Assembly (NCBI GenBank): GCA_945900785.1
Contig: CAMDJM010000014.1
Coordinates: forward strand, 1 to 64,000
Direction: 5' to 3'
Length of the DNA stretch: 64,000 nt
Origin: Akkermansia muciniphila
Lineage (GTDB): Bacteria; Verrucomicrobiota; Verrucomicrobiia; Verrucomicrobiales; V1-33
The translations under genes were made by a program, and so were the position numbers. This document shows positions 27,949 through 60,276 of this stretch, in pieces. Numbering within the stretch: position 1 is the first letter of the stretch; each line of letters begins with the position of its first letter. The notes under the pieces were generated by a model. It made no database searches. It was not told where the DNA came from and worked only from the letters and a program-made list of their open reading frames with translations.

Positions 27949-27981
27949 ACTGGAGGGGCTATTCGCGGGATGCTGAATAAA

Positions 27982-28082
27982 TTAATTCTACTTTGTTAAG
28001 TTCCCCGTGGCGCAGGCTTCCAGCCTGTGCGGCCAGCGGGCTTCCAGCCCGCTGATTCCCCAACTTAACAAAGTAGAATTAA
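27982..28082 (+). repeat. Palindromic element copy A (complete)
   Basis: 101 bp element bounded by perfect 21 bp inverted arms at 27982-28002 and 28062-28082. Inside are two hairpins: GCGCAGGCT-TCC-AGCCTGTGC (9 pairs, one G-T) and AGCGGGCT-TCC-AGCCCGCT (8 pairs). It shares nearly its whole length with copies at 34508-34602 and, inverted, 52018-52110. It has no coding capacity, so it resembles a MITE or REP-like element. It sits between the aquaporin stop and the DUF1460 gene. Confidence 0.9.
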
Positions 28083-28228
28083 ACAAGTGACAGGAGGTTT
28101 TCCGTCCGCGCGGGGGAAATCCGGGACAGGGAATCCGTTCGTGCATTTACTGGATCCTGTGCTAAGAAAGTGGGATTGCGTGTTCCTGCTGCCTTGCCGC
28201 TGGATCACAGCCCAACCCCTGACTGATC

Positions 28229-34488: not shown

Positions 34489-34507
34489 AAAAGAAAAAAG
34501 CACGCCT

Positions 34508-34602
34508 AATTCTACCTTGTTGACTTCCCCGTGGCGCAGGCTTCCAGCCGGTGCGGCCAGCGGGCTTCCAGCCCGCTGATTCCCCGACTTAACAAAGTAG
34601 AA
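34508..34602 (+). repeat. Palindromic element copy B (diverged arms)
   Basis: Same orientation and internal layout as copy A, with both TCC-loop hairpins retained. Its 5-prime arm (from 34508, CTACCTTGTTGACTT) no longer pairs fully with the 3-prime arm (GACTTAACAAAGTAG), so this copy is decaying. It lies between the convergent gntK and LamG genes. Confidence 0.85.
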
Positions 34603-34608
34603 CCAAGT

Positions 34609-34719: not shown

Positions 34720-34791
34720 CAGCGGGCTGGAAGCTCACTGGCCCCGCACCGGCTGGAAGCCTGCGCCACGGAGAAGCTTACAAGGAGAATT
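34720..34791 (-). repeat. Truncated inverted copy of the palindromic element (B2)
   Basis: Reverse-orientation remnant lacking one terminal arm. It shares the variant AGCCGGTGCGG with copy B but not with A or C, so it probably arose by a local inverted duplication. It begins within the stop codon of the LamG gene, meaning the 3-prime end of that gene abuts the element. Confidence 0.75.
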
Positions 34792-37204
34792 ACCGTCTCA
34801 GACGGTAGAACCGTTTGGTGACATTCTGTGGCAGGGTGGTAACGTAGGGACTGCTGGGATTTCCCGCGACATCCGTCCATTGACTCATATTGCCTGATTC
34901 CTGAAGGGTGCCGCTGCCCGTCCATGACAAGGTGACCTGCGAACCGGCAACGACTGGTTTATTGATGGTTCCCAGAGAGACATTCGAAACTGGGGCATAG
35001 GCGGACAGGAATTGGCCAGGGATGGGCTGCAGGGAGCCGGGGGCGGTGCCATCGTTGGCCGCGCGCCAGGCGACTTCCATGTAGTCGCCCCCCCCGCCTT
35101 CCTTGTAGATGCCTTCGAAAAAGTATCTTTGACCAGCCACCAGGGGAATGGGTTGGGACGAGAGGGAGCCACCCAGGGTGAAACCATTGCAACAACCGGG
35201 CTGCGCCGCGATCTGCGCGAGGTTCTCCGGACTCTCATCGGTGCTGACAGAGAAGACGGAGGCGTCATCGCTGCGGATGAAGAAGGTATAATCGGAGGTC
35301 TGGGTAGGCGTGATCCAGCCATACATGCGCGCTCCATAAAATTCGCCCAATCTGGCGTTATTGATGGGGTTGATCATGTTAAAGTCAGGGTGGGTGCTCA
35401 GGTCAAAGTTGAGGGTCAGCGTCATGGTGCTGAACCGGTTCAGGATGCGGTGGGTCCACGGGCCATCCGGGTATTGGTAATTGTTCGTCAGGCCGGAGAC
35501 GACACTGCCCGGGGTGTTGCGGTAGTAGTCCCAGGCAATGGCACCCTGGGTCAGCACATAGGATTTGAAGCTGGTCAGGTTCGGGCCGATGAGATTCTGT
35601 GAGACCCGGGCATCCCTTACTCCGGTAATGCTCAAGGTGTAGTCCTGGCCTGGCAGCATCCCGTCGGTCGTGACGTTGATGACGGAAGGATCGTCCGTGG
35701 GGAATACGCCAGTTGTGATCAGTCCACCACTGAAGGTATAGGAGCTGGTATCCACGATGGTGTCGGCGGACATGGGTTTATTGAAGCCGATGCGCACCCG
35801 GTTCAGGGTAGGAGTGCCCGTGACATAGGTGACCGTCGGGGGAACCGTATCCGGAGCCACCGTGATGGTGGTTCCTTCGCTGTCGAGATTGGTGAGGGGG
35901 TTGGAAATGGACAGAACGTAGACGCCTGCATCAGTATCCGTGAGGCCATGAATCACCAGGGTGGTTCCGGTGACACCCTGCGGGTATTTTCTGCTGCCAT
36001 CCAGGTTGGTGTCCGTGGCACTGAGCGGATTGCCGTCCTTCAGCCATTGGAAAGTGTTGGGGAATCCGGTTACGTTGGCGGTGAGGGTGACGTCGTTTTC
36101 CTCCAGACTATTCACCGTCGCGGGCGGGGGCGTGGTAATGGTCGGGGCAAAGTAAGTGATGGAGAAATGATTCTCCACCTGTTCCGGGGAGAGTTCGTAA
36201 TTGTAGTAAGCCACTTCATCCACGGCACCGGCATATGGCAGTGCTCCGCCAAAGCGGCTGCCGATTTCGAGGCCTTGGGCTTCATTGTTGCGGAAGGGCA
36301 GGACAAAGGTGGTGGAGCGCTGTTTGAATCCGTTCACATAAAGGCTGGCAACACCGGGGTCCCCGCCGTCCCAGGTGACTACAATGTGATCCCATCGGCC
36401 TGCGACGATGGGAGTGCTGCCATTGAGAGCGACAAAACTGCCGCCAGCGCCCAACTGCACGTCCCAGAAGTTTCCACCGGTGCCCTGATAGATCACGTAG
36501 CCGGCCCGCCCGGCGTTCCGGTTTTGGGTGGAGAGCACTGCTTTCCCGGTATTGGCGGCGAGATCAGGCTTGACCCAGCATTCCACGGAGAAAGGCCCGG
36601 CGGAATTGACATTGGGCGTGAAGGGCACGCTGGCGGAGATGCCATCCGTGGTGGCTTTAAAGCGGGTCGCGGTGTCAGGAGCAAGGCCTTTGGGGCCGGT
36701 AATGCCGCGTTCGATCCGGGTGGTGTTCATGGTGCCGTTGTGGCCGCCTGCAACATCGGTGAAGACGGAGCCTGTCGATTCACTCAGACGCCAGTAAGCG
36801 GTAGGACCGTCGGCCAGCACCTTGGCGGCGTAGAGGTCGGGAGCGGGGAGGTTGCTGAAATTCACCGTGAACGGATTACTGGTCACGGAACCGGTCGGAT
36901 CGCTGACCGTGACGGTATAGCTTCCGGAATTGGCCGTGGTGGTATTGCGCAGCGCCAAGGCGGCGGTCGTCGCGGAATCATTGCCGGCTACCGGGTCGCC
37001 ATTCCGGTTCCATTGGTAGGTGATGGGTGCCGTTCCTGTGGCCTTGACCCGGTAAATGGGAGCCCCCCCGGCATACAAATTGGCAGTTCCAGTGGGGGCG
37101 GAAGTGATGGTCGGAGCAGCCAAACAGGGCAGTGCTGCAAGGAAGGTGATTGACAGCACCAGTGCTTTGGTCGGGAGGGGAGTGGCTGAGTGAAACAGTT
37201 TCAT
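34790..37204 (-). CDS. Secreted Ig-LamG-Ig-PA14 protein
   Basis: 804-residue exported protein. A signal peptide ends near CLAA (about residue 27). Domains in order by eye: Ig-like (28-115, with YRVKATGTAPITYQWNRNGD), LamG/concanavalin-like (120-325), second Ig-like (330-425), an SbsA/Big_5-like domain with LNRVRIGFNKPMS (425-525), PA14 (about 530-740, with MYGWITPTQTSDYTFFIRSD and KEGGGGDYMEVAW), and a C-terminal module ending KRFYRLRR. LamG and PA14 domains bind carbohydrates, so adhesion or polysaccharide capture is likely. The layout matches the last 770 residues of the protein at 55509-59672. The start was placed at the ATG before KLFHSATPL. A terminator separates it from the upstream gene. 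Confidence 0.85.
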   Translation of the reverse strand: MKLFHSATPLPTKALVLSITFLAALPCLAAPTITSAPTGTANLYAGGAPIYRVKATGTAPITYQWNRNGDPVAGNDSATTAALALRNTTTANSGSYTVTVSDPTGSVTSNPFTVNFSNLPAPDLYAAKVLADGPTAYWRLSESTGSVFTDVAGGHNGTMNTTRIERGITGPKGLAPDTATRFKATTDGISASVPFTPNVNSAGPFSVECWVKPDLAANTGKAVLSTQNRNAGRAGYVIYQGTGGNFWDVQLGAGGSFVALNGSTPIVAGRWDHIVVTWDGGDPGVASLYVNGFKQRSTTFVLPFRNNEAQGLEIGSRFGGALPYAGAVDEVAYYNYELSPEQVENHFSITYFAPTITTPPPATVNSLEENDVTLTANVTGFPNTFQWLKDGNPLSATDTNLDGSRKYPQGVTGTTLVIHGLTDTDAGVYVLSISNPLTNLDSEGTTITVAPDTVPPTVTYVTGTPTLNRVRIGFNKPMSADTIVDTSSYTFSGGLITTGVFPTDDPSVINVTTDGMLPGQDYTLSITGVRDARVSQNLIGPNLTSFKSYVLTQGAIAWDYYRNTPGSVVSGLTNNYQYPDGPWTHRILNRFSTMTLTLNFDLSTHPDFNMINPINNARLGEFYGARMYGWITPTQTSDYTFFIRSDDASVFSVSTDESPENLAQIAAQPGCCNGFTLGGSLSSQPIPLVAGQRYFFEGIYKEGGGGDYMEVAWRAANDGTAPGSLQPIPGQFLSAYAPVSNVSLGTINKPVVAGSQVTLSWTGSGTLQESGNMSQWTDVAGNPSSPYVTTLPQNVTKRFYRLRR

Positions 37205-37304: not shown

Positions 37305-39395
37305 TTACCGTGTTCTGATGGCGCGGTAGAAGAGCTTGCCGGCCGTGTGGGCTGCTTCGGAGGTATCAGTATATTGCACCGTGGCACCAGACGCTACGAT
37401 GTCCGTCCGGATCAGGGTCCATGGACCAGCCGGGTTGGTGGCGCGCTCCACTGCATACGAGGCGTCAGCCACGGATTCAATGGTGAGGGTCACGTCTTTG
37501 CTGATAAGATCACGGGAGACCCCAGCGATGTTGAAGGCAGGGCCGGGGGCGACGAGGGAGAGCCACATGGAAAGGGCCTCGGAGTCCGTCAGAGCGCGGT
37601 CCAGCCAGATCGCCACTTCATCCTGCGCCCCGGAGTGGGTCGTGGTGTCAGTAGGGTTGTCCCGGCGTCCGCCGATTTTGGCGAAGTCGGTGTTGATGCC
37701 CCAGCCAGTGACATCGGGCTTGAGGTCGTCAGTGCGGTTTACGCCATTGACCCAGACTTTGATGTTGGAGGCGCGTTCCGCTCCAGTATCACCCTCGGTG
37801 GTGGCAATGATATGGAACCAGCCGGCAGCAGCGCTATAAAGGCTGCGGTCGCGGTCAGCGCCGCTACTGAGCCAGAGGGTGCGTTCTGCGGTCAGGCCAG
37901 TGGTGTTGGGATCCACCGATATCACCAAGCCGTTGTTGGCGACGTTGAGCTGGAAACTGGTCGTGGGATCAGCAAGGTTGTTGGTGAAGACACGGTCCCC
38001 CCCTTGAGGGAAGTCGGCTTTCAGGAACAGGGACACCGTCATGGCTTTGGCACCATAGTCCGTATTCGCGCCACCCAGAACGATGTGGCCCTTGTTCCGG
38101 CTGTTGTGGCTCAGGTTGGGCTCGGCTCCTGGGGCAGAGCTGTTCAGACCGGGAATAGGGATCCCGGGGCGCTGGTTCGCCGGTGGGTTTCCACCAGCAA
38201 GGTTGGCCCCATCGGTGGTGCCGCCAAAGACCTCCGTCGGACCGGCAAAGCCCACCTCAGGATTTGTGGAAGGGATGAAAGGGTCGGCTGGGGGATCTGT
38301 CGGAGCGGGATCGTAGAGGTAGTTCCCATTGTAGGAGGAACCAGCAGGCTGATTGCCCATCAGGTCAACCACTCCAGCGGGAGGAGTGCCCAAAGCGTCC
38401 ACAGGTTTTTCATCGAGCTTGAAGTAATACTTCGGATTCAAGGAAACGACTTTCTCGGTGTAAGGAGCCGCTGTTGCCGCCTTCCAGAGGCCTTTCACTT
38501 CGGCGTCGGTGAGCACGCGGTTCATCCAAATGGAAACTTCGTCCTGGGCACCGGAGTGGGTGGTGGAATCAGCTGGGTTGTCACGGCGTCCGCCAATTTT
38601 GGCGAATTCGGTATTGATGCCCCAGCCGGTCACGTCGGGCTTCATGTCGTCGGTCCGATCCACCCCGTTGATCCAGACCTTGATATTGGAGGCCCGCTCC
38701 GCACCGGTAGCGCCGCTGGTGGAGGCCACCACGTGGAACCAGCCTGCATTGAAGTTATAAAGATTGCGGTCGCGATCCGTCCCATCCGATAGGTAAAGCG
38801 TCCGTTCTGCAGTGAGGCCGGTGGTAGTAGGGTCTACGGCAATGACAAGACCGTTGTTGGCGACGTTCAGTTGGAAACTGGTCGTGGGATCAGCCAGATT
38901 GTTGGTGAAGACGCGGTCTCCACCCTGGGGGAAATTGGCCTTGAGGAACAAGGCCACCGTCATGGCATTCGCTCCGTAGTCCGTATTGGGTCCGGGCAGG
39001 ATGATGTGACCGACGTTGTTGCTGTTGTGGGAAAGATTGCTCAGGCCGCCCAGACCGGGCACCTTGATGCCAGGAAGACCGTTGGTAGCGCCGAGGTTTT
39101 TGCCGTCGGTGGTGCCGCCGAAGACTTCCATCGGCCCAGGGAAACCGGCCATCGGGGCATTGGCGGCACCACTGTAGTTGCCGTTGTAGGTTCCTTTTTC
39201 GCCCATGGGGCGCATGGAGTCCAGCACCCCGTTGGCGGTGCTGGTTTCGTTCAGCTCAAAATAATACGTGGGAGCGAGTGCTTTAACCGCTTTTTGGTAG
39301 GTGGCGGCACCGGCGATTTGGGGTGATGCGGCAAAAGCACACAGCAGAGCGGCGAGGGTGCCGGAAGTGGAGTCATTTAAACGGCGTTTTTTCAT
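37305..39395 (-). CDS. Secreted protein with two tandem LamG-type repeats
   Basis: 696-residue exported protein with a signal peptide of about 30 residues. The mature part consists of two long homologous repeats (about 31-312 and 313-602). Each contains a YYFxL start, GPxEVFGGTTDG, LSHNS, GGDRVFTNNLADPTTSFQLN, TGLTAERTL, GAERASNIKVW and WGINTxFAKIGGRRDNP. The sets are nearly identical, so the duplication is internal and fairly recent or homogenised. The repeats resemble LamG/concanavalin sandwiches. A C-terminal beta module (about 610-696) ends LFYRAIRTR. Carbohydrate binding at the cell surface is inferred. A strong terminator follows. Upstream lies a long AT-rich gap. Confidence 0.82.
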   Translation of the reverse strand: MKKRRLNDSTSGTLAALLCAFAASPQIAGAATYQKAVKALAPTYYFELNETSTANGVLDSMRPMGEKGTYNGNYSGAANAPMAGFPGPMEVFGGTTDGKNLGATNGLPGIKVPGLGGLSNLSHNSNNVGHIILPGPNTDYGANAMTVALFLKANFPQGGDRVFTNNLADPTTSFQLNVANNGLVIAVDPTTTGLTAERTLYLSDGTDRDRNLYNFNAGWFHVVASTSGATGAERASNIKVWINGVDRTDDMKPDVTGWGINTEFAKIGGRRDNPADSTTHSGAQDEVSIWMNRVLTDAEVKGLWKAATAAPYTEKVVSLNPKYYFKLDEKPVDALGTPPAGVVDLMGNQPAGSSYNGNYLYDPAPTDPPADPFIPSTNPEVGFAGPTEVFGGTTDGANLAGGNPPANQRPGIPIPGLNSSAPGAEPNLSHNSRNKGHIVLGGANTDYGAKAMTVSLFLKADFPQGGDRVFTNNLADPTTSFQLNVANNGLVISVDPNTTGLTAERTLWLSSGADRDRSLYSAAAGWFHIIATTEGDTGAERASNIKVWVNGVNRTDDLKPDVTGWGINTDFAKIGGRRDNPTDTTTHSGAQDEVAIWLDRALTDSEALSMWLSLVAPGPAFNIAGVSRDLISKDVTLTIESVADASYAVERATNPAGPWTLIRTDIVASGATVQYTDTSEAAHTAGKLFYRAIRTR

Positions 39396-49362: not shown

Positions 49363-49455
49363 GGAGCGACCGGATGGCCATGGCAAAAGCACCTTGGGGC
49401 CAAGCCGGGTGCTGGCATGTGACATTTTCTCTACCGCGCGACGGATGGAAGCAGT

Positions 49456-49560
49456 GGAACACGGGCGTCCCGCCGGTGCTGGCTGGCGGTCATCCTGACC
49501 GCTGCATGCTCCTGCCGGCAGGACGCCAGCAACCCAGCACCGCCGGGACGGCTGTGTTCC
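49456..49560. repeat. Complex palindromic element between HAD gene and tRNA-Leu
   Basis: Imperfect outer arms of about 33-37 nt begin GGAACAC (49456) and end GTGTTCC (49560). Inside lie a hairpin GCGGTCA-TCC-TGACCGC (49486-49502) and a perfect 14 bp palindrome TCCTGCCGGCAGGA (49510-49523). It has no coding content. Its sequence differs from elements A-C, but the TCC loop recurs. It occupies most of the 316 bp gap after the HAD gene; the remainder shows nothing. Confidence 0.7.
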
Positions 49561-49678
49561 GTTCCATGAATAGGCGGTCGCACCCGGAAGCAACGCCCCG
49601 GGGAAATTGGGAAGTTGTGCAGGAAGAGCTTGCAGAGTCAACATCCAACGTTCATGCTGGCGCGTGCAGCTATTGCAG

Positions 49679-49760
49679 GCCAGGATGGCGAAATTGGTAG
49701 ACGCGCCAGACTTAGGATCTGGTGGAGCAATCCGTGCAGGTTCGAGTCCTGTTCCTGGTA
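49679..49760 (+). tRNA. tRNA-Leu (anticodon UAG)
   Basis: Class II cloverleaf. The acceptor stem GCCAGGA pairs with TCCTGGT, followed by discriminator A. The D-arm contains AAATTGGTAGACGC. The anticodon stem CCAGA/TCTGG closes loop CTTAGGA with anticodon TAG. A long variable arm (TGGAGCAATCCGTG) and the T-loop TTCGAGT follow. The long variable arm and the A discriminator fit leucine. CCA is not encoded. It decodes CUA and, by wobble, other CUN codons. Confidence 0.95.
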
Positions 49761-51993: not shown

Positions 51994-52017
51994 GGGTTAT
52001 TGGTTTCTGGTTATTAG

Positions 52018-52110
52018 TTCTACTTGGTTGAGTTGGGGAATCAGCGGGCTGGAAGCCCGCTGGCCCCACAGGCTGGAAGCCTGCGCCACGGGGAACTCAA
52101 CAAAGTAGAA
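52018..52110 (-). repeat. Palindromic element copy C (inverted orientation)
   Basis: Reverse-orientation copy of element A, near-identical along its length. Both TCC-loop hairpins are present. Its arms carry GTTGAGTT/AACTCAAC where A has GTTAAGTT/AACTTAAC, a paired change that keeps the stem. It lies between the divergent vWA and WYL genes, 24 bp from the vWA start. Confidence 0.88.
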
Positions 52111-52191
52111 TTAGTTATTGATTATTGGGCGGGTGCGGGCTGTGGGGGATGGCGTGGCGGCTTGGCGGGATCGAAAGGAATTAAAATTTGC

Positions 52192-53132: not shown

Positions 53133-53241
53133 AAGGGGTTTTTGGAAATGACTTTGGAACTGGACGCCTATGTAACCAGAATGAGTTCCAGCACGTGCCG
53201 GGCTTGAGCGTATTCAGTTATTGACGCTTGATTTGAAACGA

Positions 53242-53258
53242 ACAGGCGGGACGCCTGT
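53242..53258. other. ACAGGC-GGGAC-GCCTGT hairpin between convergent genes
   Basis: A six-pair stem with the loop GGGAC (GTCCC on the other strand) lies just past the ABC-F stop on the minus strand. The word GGCGTCCCGCC also occurs, imperfectly paired, in the element at 49461-49477. It may be a dispersed small palindrome or a weak transcript end. Confidence 0.45.
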
Positions 53259-53269
53259 GCTCCTGTTGG

Positions 53270-59738: not shown

Positions 59739-59943
59739 GTTCACGCGAAATAAAAATAGCGATTTGCCGGAAGCGCCCGGCACGAAAAACGAAGTGGGGG
59801 TTTTCTTTTGGTTTGTGGCATCCGCAAAGCTTGAGTCCGGCACCAGCAGGAGATGCTAACTTTTTCCGGAAAGTCAGCGGGCTGGCCGCACAGGCTCAGA
59901 CCTCCTGACCTGCCGGGAAAGCGGGTGAACCGATTTGCGGCAT

Positions 59944-60159
59944 TCAAGCCGGAGGCTTGACAGAGGGTAGCCGGTGGTTGAGCGCCAGCGACACCACCGG
60001 AAAACAGGCATCACCTCTCCCGACCCCGGCAGGGGTCGTAGCTCCTCCTGCTCCACTCCGCCTGTTGTGCCTGCAACCCCTCCGGGGTCGGGAGAACCTT
60101 GGCCTTGGTTCCGGTGGTGTCGCTGGCGCTCAACCACCGGCTGCGATCCCTCCGGGATC
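59944..60159. repeat. Island of nested inverted repeats and small hairpins
   Basis: A perfect 34 bp inverted repeat (59969-60002 with 60109-60142) encloses a second inverted repeat of 14 bp (60016-60029 with 60082-60095). Small hairpins lie inside and outside: TCAAGCC-GGA-GGCTTGA (59944-59960), GACCCC-GGCA-GGGGTC (60022-60037), ACCCC-TCC-GGGGT (60077-60089) and GATCCC-TCC-GGGATC (60145-60159). No protein is encoded. It lies in the 604 bp gap between the LamG terminator and trxB. The flanks (59739-59943 and 60160-60276) hold nothing recognisable. Confidence 0.85.
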
Positions 60160-60276
60160 AGGAACCACGGTGGCCACCAAATGCCACGGCGACCGGTTCA
60201 TCTCCTTTCCCCAAGGTTCCGCAGTCACCTTCCGGCAGGTCAGGATGTCTGAGGATGGAAGCCCGTGCCACTGGAA

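Follow-up and report, generated by a model that had tools for sequence, protein, structure and literature searches.

The hairpins with a constant TCC loop that are dispersed through this stretch of DNA are very probably repetitive extragenic palindromes (REPs) and inverted REP pairs, non-autonomous elements spread by transposases of the RAYT (TnpA-REP) type, which are Y1, HUH enzymes. Like REPs elsewhere they are short palindromes in many dispersed, mostly extragenic copies, and three of their four families flank RAYT genes in inverted orientation. REPs are a known kind of element, here with a shared loop; the unusual part is the occurrence of RAYT cassettes in frame within host genes.

Repeat families of the window and the loop census

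The window is a 64-kb stretch of contig C14, in a genome of 5.08 Mb (172 contigs, 86% complete). It contains the following elements, which we group into families F1 to F4:

27981-28085, plus strand: element A (F1), terminal inverted repeats enclosing two TCC hairpins, with a GTGG foot
34506-34608, plus strand: element B (F1), one of its two hairpins decayed
34720-34792, minus strand: partial F1 copy
49452-49585, unstranded: element F3, an inverted arm pair around the hairpin of the next line, each arm ending in a TCC-loop hairpin
49486-49502, plus strand: hairpin GCGGTCA-TCC-TGACCGC, the centre of F3 and the one first reported
52013-52116, minus strand: element C (F1), inverted relative to A and B
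53235-53267, minus strand: single F2-type REP with a GGAGC foot, ACAGGCG-TCC-CGCCTGT
59891-60258, unstranded: element F4, a composite inverted-repeat element with TCC hairpins at 59944-59960, 60076-60088 and 60145-60159

Each of these families is repeated in the genome. The hairpin at the centre of F3 has further copies at C14:65182, C27:20894 and C3:78719, and F3 itself, whose boundaries were set from its copies in the genome, has 20 matches there; a GTGG is found in F3 at the left arm only, 4 bases away from it. We count 138 copies of the F1 core, GGCTTCCAGCC, genome-wide and none of its reversed-pattern control. F2, which has a GGGGAGA foot, consists of ACAGSCG-TCC-CGSCTGT next to another TCC hairpin, and its copies are mostly inverted pairs about 100 bp apart. 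F4 has 56 matches in this genome and 90 in that of a congener (G004). The sequence-only reading had placed two TCC hairpins in each of elements A to C, which is correct for A and C; in B one of them, near 34537, now has a stem of only 4 bp. The hairpins that it named near 60 kb are all present, namely TCAAGCC-GGA-GGCTTGA (59944-59960), GATCCC-TCC-GGGATC (60145-60159) and ACCCC-TCC-GGGGT (60076-60088), the last with a 5-bp stem that falls under the 6-bp cut of the census described below. Applied to the whole window, that cut leaves 38 perfect triloop hairpins, of which 9 have a TCC/GGA loop.

Some further features of the window may be recorded here. An Rfam scan of the window matched a tRNA and nothing else, and a tRNA-Leu gene (49679-49760) begins 94 bases past the end of F3. 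In elements A to C the REP core is enclosed by outer terminal inverted repeats, TTCTAC...GTAGAA, which may be used by another transposase. The coding region at 37579-39146 contains repeat pairs of 278, 243 and 53 nt that are 75-77% identical and about 0.9 kb apart.

For the census we tabulated perfect triloop hairpins with stems of 6 bp or longer in 2.06 Mb of the 5.08-Mb genome, after removal of 3304 spurious hairpins formed by masked Ns. The loop is TCC/GGA in 95 of 249 intergenic hairpins and in 27 of 623 coding ones, the division between the two being approximate because genes were called by a purpose-written script; such a strong intergenic enrichment is what the sequence-only reading had asked to see. 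Seen from the other side, 95 of the 122 TCC hairpins in the 2.06 Mb sampled are intergenic. Dinucleotide-shuffled intergenic DNA gave, as the mean of 20 shuffles, 5.15 TCC/GGA loops among 127 hairpins; these shuffles and the reversed-pattern control (0 against 138) rule out chance or base composition as a source of the hairpins.

The excess is concentrated in repeated sequences. The TCC loop is found in 12 of 20 intergenic hairpin types that are present at least twice and in 10 of 12 that are present at least three times, as compared with 11 of 140 single-copy types. As the single-copy hairpins are near background, the TCC excess belongs to dispersed repeats. A single repeat family is ruled out, since 12 different TCC hairpin types are repeated. 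The description of these hairpins as unrelated structures that share a loop is thus right in that stems vary while the loop is kept, and needs amending in that most of them fall in a few repeat families.

RAYT genes and the strand-specific loop and tag

No RAYT gene was found inside the 64-kb window, and the nine matches to the Y1_Tnp profile in this genome are all on other contigs; in the scheme set out below the window would carry passengers only, with the RAYT genes elsewhere in the genome. A RAYT on C13 has F2 hairpins on either side as an inverted pair, and another, on C20, is flanked by F1-type hairpins, although the perfect one downstream of it has a loop of 4 nt. The F3 sequence flanks a RAYT (81714-81935) in G007, a member of another genus of the same family, where it lies at 81334-81373 on the plus strand and at 82029-82072 on the minus strand; no F4 copy was seen beside a RAYT. 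Matches of the RAYT domains to PF01797 exceed the cut-off, and three RAYTs of this genome score 60-76 bits with NF047646 (REP_Tyr_transpos), below its cut-off of 80. The solved structures closest by sequence are TnpA-REP 4er8, which is the best match, and IS200/IS605-type transposases. Three further RAYTs, L017 (C60), L013 (C33) and L014 (C37), have flanking palindromes of their own with other loops, namely a TTC/GAA loop, a TGC triloop and GTAG-footed palindromes centred on CC.

The association is seen on a larger scale around 80 RAYT loci, the best 80 of at least 406 confirmed relatives, which come from Verrucomicrobiota, Planctomycetota, Bacteroidota, Chlorobiota, Chloroflexota, Kiritimatiellota and other groups, and include related organisms. 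Around these best 80 RAYTs, up to 450 bp away, we counted 201 triloop hairpins, a density of 29 per 10 kb as against 6 per 10 kb at more than 1.5 kb away. The loop is TCC/GGA in 77 of the 201 and TCT/AGA in 38, together 115 (TCY hereafter); GCA (15), GAA (12), AAA and AGC loops also occur. The RAYT has a TCY hairpin on either side at 29 of the best 80 loci, which is the case at none of 762 random positions there, and a TCY hairpin on at least one side is seen at 40 of the 80 as compared with 57 of the 762 positions; at half of the 80 loci no TCY hairpin with a stem of 6 bp or more is found within 450 bp. A shared recognising factor or a common origin, the two causes that had been offered for the constant loop, are both in keeping with this arrangement. 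The proposal that stems vary while the loop stays holds here as well, with 41 different TCC stems over 30 of these loci, and the orientation of the tag is also kept.

This orientation is apparent in two ways. TCY on the RAYT strand is mostly upstream of the gene (37 against 18 downstream) and TCY on the opposite strand mostly downstream (41 against 19), so that the hairpins are inverted about the gene. In addition, of 86 distinct TCY hairpins at the best 80 loci, 36 have a GTAG, GTGG or GGAG tag at the foot of the TCY strand and 5 have one at the foot of the opposite strand (GTAG/GTGG 21 against 0, GGAG 16 against 5); 50 of the 86 have no tag in the 10 bases inspected. In this genome the TCY strand carries GTAG/GTGG in 5 of 41 hairpins and GGAG in 6, together 11 of 41, as against 0 of 41 for the opposite strand.

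A plausible explanation is that the RAYT enzyme would bind one strand of the folded hairpin. Given a perfectly palindromic stem, one strand would differ from the other in the loop (TCC, more rarely TCT) and the foot tag (GTAG, GTGG or GGAG) alone, and an enzyme that acts on single strands and chooses one of them would therefore be obliged to read loop and tag; for the same reason the stem would be free to drift or to be replaced, with loop and tag kept. From a RAYT clade that reads TCY one would then expect a constant TCC loop with variable stems. That RAYTs recognise these hairpins we infer from the association described above together with work on a related enzyme. For the TnpA-REP of S. maltophilia the available portions of the published account (PMC8266576) describe a substrate with a perfect 8-bp stem, the 3-nt loop GCT and a GTAG foot; in vitro, reversal of the loop severely affects cleavage and compromises binding, and changes to blocks of the stem are, in the authors' words, "not drastic" in effect. 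The S. maltophilia REPtron Sm thus resembles the present elements in its perfect stem and 3-nt loop, the loop being needed there and the stem sequence mattering less, and differs in that its loop is GCT, with G as the key base, rather than TCC or TCT (same portions of PMC8266576). The present elements are presumably also cleaved and mobile.

Two other readings of the hairpins account for part of these data. They might be RNA elements that favour a UCC loop by coincidence, for instance intrinsic terminators or stabilisers of 3' ends. In favour of this, convergent gene pairs enclose 32 of the 92 TCC hairpins that could be placed, as compared with 143 of 786 intergenic regions, an excess, and divergent pairs enclose 10 of the 92, as compared with 170 of the 786, a deficit; however, REPs too are described as avoiding divergent regions, in the part of PMC3733652 available. 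Placement in inverted pairs, within open frames and beside RAYT genes also argues against RNA elements, and we regard this reading as very unlikely. A T run follows within 10 nt of only 1 of 95 TCC hairpins, as against 7 of 154 others, which rules out terminators.

It is also known that GNA triloops, of which GGA is one, fold very stably in single-stranded DNA, with C-G as the stable closing pair, so that such hairpins might arise and persist through DNA shape alone with no factor reading them. GNA on one strand is common near RAYTs (GGA 77, GCA 15 and GAA 12 of 201 at the best 80 of at least 406 loci), but AGA, with 38 of the 201, is not a GNA loop, and the closing pair on the TCY strand is G-C in 67 of 115 hairpins at these loci and C-G in only 13. 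The co-orientation of tag and loop and the small TCC excess among single-copy hairpins likewise speak against shape alone, to which we give very little credence.

RAYT cassettes in frame within host genes

The position of three RAYTs of this genome was unexpected, as they lie in frame within leuS (L012, on C12), alaS (L015, on C13) and carB (L016, on C20). In all three the frame is open from the host start through the host end, the cassette has no stop codon, and Pfam domains of the host lie on either side of the RAYT; the leuS insert falls in the editing domain and the carB insert in the oligomerisation domain. Two of the embedded RAYTs have TCC-loop hairpins, on both sides or on one, and the third a degenerate hairpin. 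Other members of the family have RAYTs embedded in carB (G002, G007), leuS (G010, G011) and a gene for an Eco57I-type enzyme (G007).

Counting a RAYT as embedded when the open frame extends more than 120 aa past the RAYT match on at least one side, we find 40 embedded loci among the best 80 of at least 406 relatives. Their hosts are carB (9), leuS (7), hsdR (7), the DUF1156 type (5), alaS (2) and adenosine deaminase (2), with one each of SNF2 helicase, MmeI-type, UDG, menaquinone-biosynthesis, NUDIX and AnmK; L202 and L206 have no assigned host, nine of the 40 frames reach a contig end, L223 has its RAYT at the C-terminal end, and L173 (carB) and L237 (DUF1156-like) were assigned by eye. Insertion sites recur, at about position 360-370 of TIGR00396 in leuS, 200-220 of TIGR00348 in hsdR and after about position 55 of CPSase_L_D3 in carB, and alaS has two distinct sites, at about 374 and 653 of TIGR00344. 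The HUH and tyrosine patterns are present in 37 of 37 embedded RAYTs, a conservation that is partly built in because the locus search pattern contained the HUH motif. Family scans of the embedded proteins returned host families, Y1_Tnp or REP_Tyr_transpos and one Cas_NE0113 match (L176); no protein-splicing (Hint) family was found at the E-values used. The structure predicted for the leuS-RAYT protein has a mean pLDDT of 51 (6 sequences). The host enzymes presumably continue to function with the insert.

Comparison of alleles shows the sites filled, empty or with REPs only. In leuS the site is spanned by a short linker in most of the 30 relatives that were fetched, with 48 residues between the two motifs used, and a RAYT-sized insert or its beginning is present in G000, G011, G082, G090 and G087; in G002, which belongs to the window's own genus, this site contains two REPs with GTAG feet, inverted and in frame, and no RAYT. 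At the carB site, where 14 of 30 rows could be placed, the length is 278-316 residues in G000, G002 and G007, as against 46, 47 and 73 in the congeners G003, G004 and G001, and 26 residues in the remaining families placed. G001, which is 99% complete, has no Y1_Tnp match. A single MAG, G010, has both a RAYT-filled and an empty leuS (L150 on C286 and L294 on C89), reflecting either a population polymorphism or a mixed assembly.

The cassettes might also be assembly chimeras, given that most of the genomes are MAGs, that assemblers fail at repeats and that G010 holds both leuS forms. The same host sites are nevertheless occupied in many separate assemblies by different RAYTs, frames are open across both junctions, and cassettes lie within contigs with host sequence on either side, including the RefSeq record NZ_NQWI01000001.1 (L242); we consider chimeras most improbable. 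A different possibility, somewhat doubtful in our view, is that the RAYT is an old domesticated domain, immobile and inherited with its host gene. RAYTs do cluster by host site in the tree, with 6 host-label changes over 38 rows as against at least 19 in 200 shuffles. Distances between RAYTs follow those between their hosts in hsdR (r 0.86, from 6 of 7 loci as L181 is cut) and to some extent in carB (r 0.60, 12 rows), and purifying selection acts on the embedded RAYTs (for example L182/L190, dN 0.055 and dS 0.65 by NG86, many pairs being saturated). However, leuS distances disagree (r -0.17, 9 rows), the carB genes of L165 and L169 are 97% identical and the RAYTs at the same site in them only 59%, the RAYT of a menaquinone-biosynthesis gene (L171) is nested among carB RAYTs, RAYT presence varies inside one genus, and a congener has the RAYT-less REP pair at its leuS site. 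A single leuS clade is weakly rejected (p-AU 0.044, in an AU test chosen after the tree was seen).

As far as these sequence comparisons go, alleles and distances agree better with one site having been occupied, or its occupant replaced, repeatedly than with simple descent. We put forward, tentatively and as something that may quite possibly be the case, that RAYT-REP cassettes make up a class of selfish elements that resemble inteins but need no splicing to persist. They would insert in frame at a permissive loop of a gene, essential or for defence, with the REPs, whose TCY-loop hairpins would guide the enzyme, holding the frame open; one site (in leuS, carB, hsdR, the DUF1156 type or alaS) would be repeatedly re-occupied or have its cassette replaced, leaving REP-only or empty alleles.

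Relation to known systems

Inteins insert in frame into conserved essential genes, at recurring sites, with a patchy distribution and site-specific lineages. The cassettes in leuS, alaS and carB of this genome are similar in their in-frame insertion in a host protein and dissimilar in that a splicing domain was not found, the insert appears to be retained in the protein and the enzyme class is Y1/HUH.

Much else has precedents. In the parts of the published accounts available to us, REPs as such, their occurrence in ORFs, REPtrons and short loops are already known (PMC3733652, PMC2817692), in-frame REPs are reported inside tnpA-REP genes, and a superfamily survey discarded unexpectedly long TnpA proteins as gene fusions or annotation errors (both PMC6006769). 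Judged by those parts, the present elements resemble GTAG/GTGG-tagged REPs and the REPtrons or TIRtrons (PMC3733652, PMC6006769, PMC2817692) in being dispersed short palindromes, often in inverted pairs and in part of the cases with a tetranucleotide foot, in flanking RAYT genes in inverted orientation and in having some copies in open reading frames; they differ in that many families with different stems have a common TCC/TCT triloop, that a GGAG foot is frequent and that whole RAYT cassettes lie in frame within housekeeping genes. Rickettsia palindromic elements and other intragenic REPs are likewise translated in host proteins, including tRNA synthetases, but as far as the available text of PMC3733652 goes these inserts encode 20 to 82 residues, whereas here a complete transposase of about 190 residues is inserted. 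A full-text search, whose reach leaves out most subscription journals and bioRxiv, found no report either of whole in-frame RAYT cassettes in housekeeping genes or of TCC/TCT as a loop common to a RAYT clade.

Taken across several phyla, these results suggest a simple grammar of REP recognition, in which the stem is free and loop and tag are fixed. Transposase cassettes are embedded in frame in two tRNA synthetases (leucyl and alanyl), in carbamoyl-phosphate synthase and in restriction enzymes, which raises directly testable questions, namely how essential enzymes tolerate the insert and whether there is intein-like homing. By eye, we also see in the second half of carB at L165 and L169 an apparent in-frame insert of a few dozen residues, free of RAYT, ahead of DRFLEDAMEVDV.
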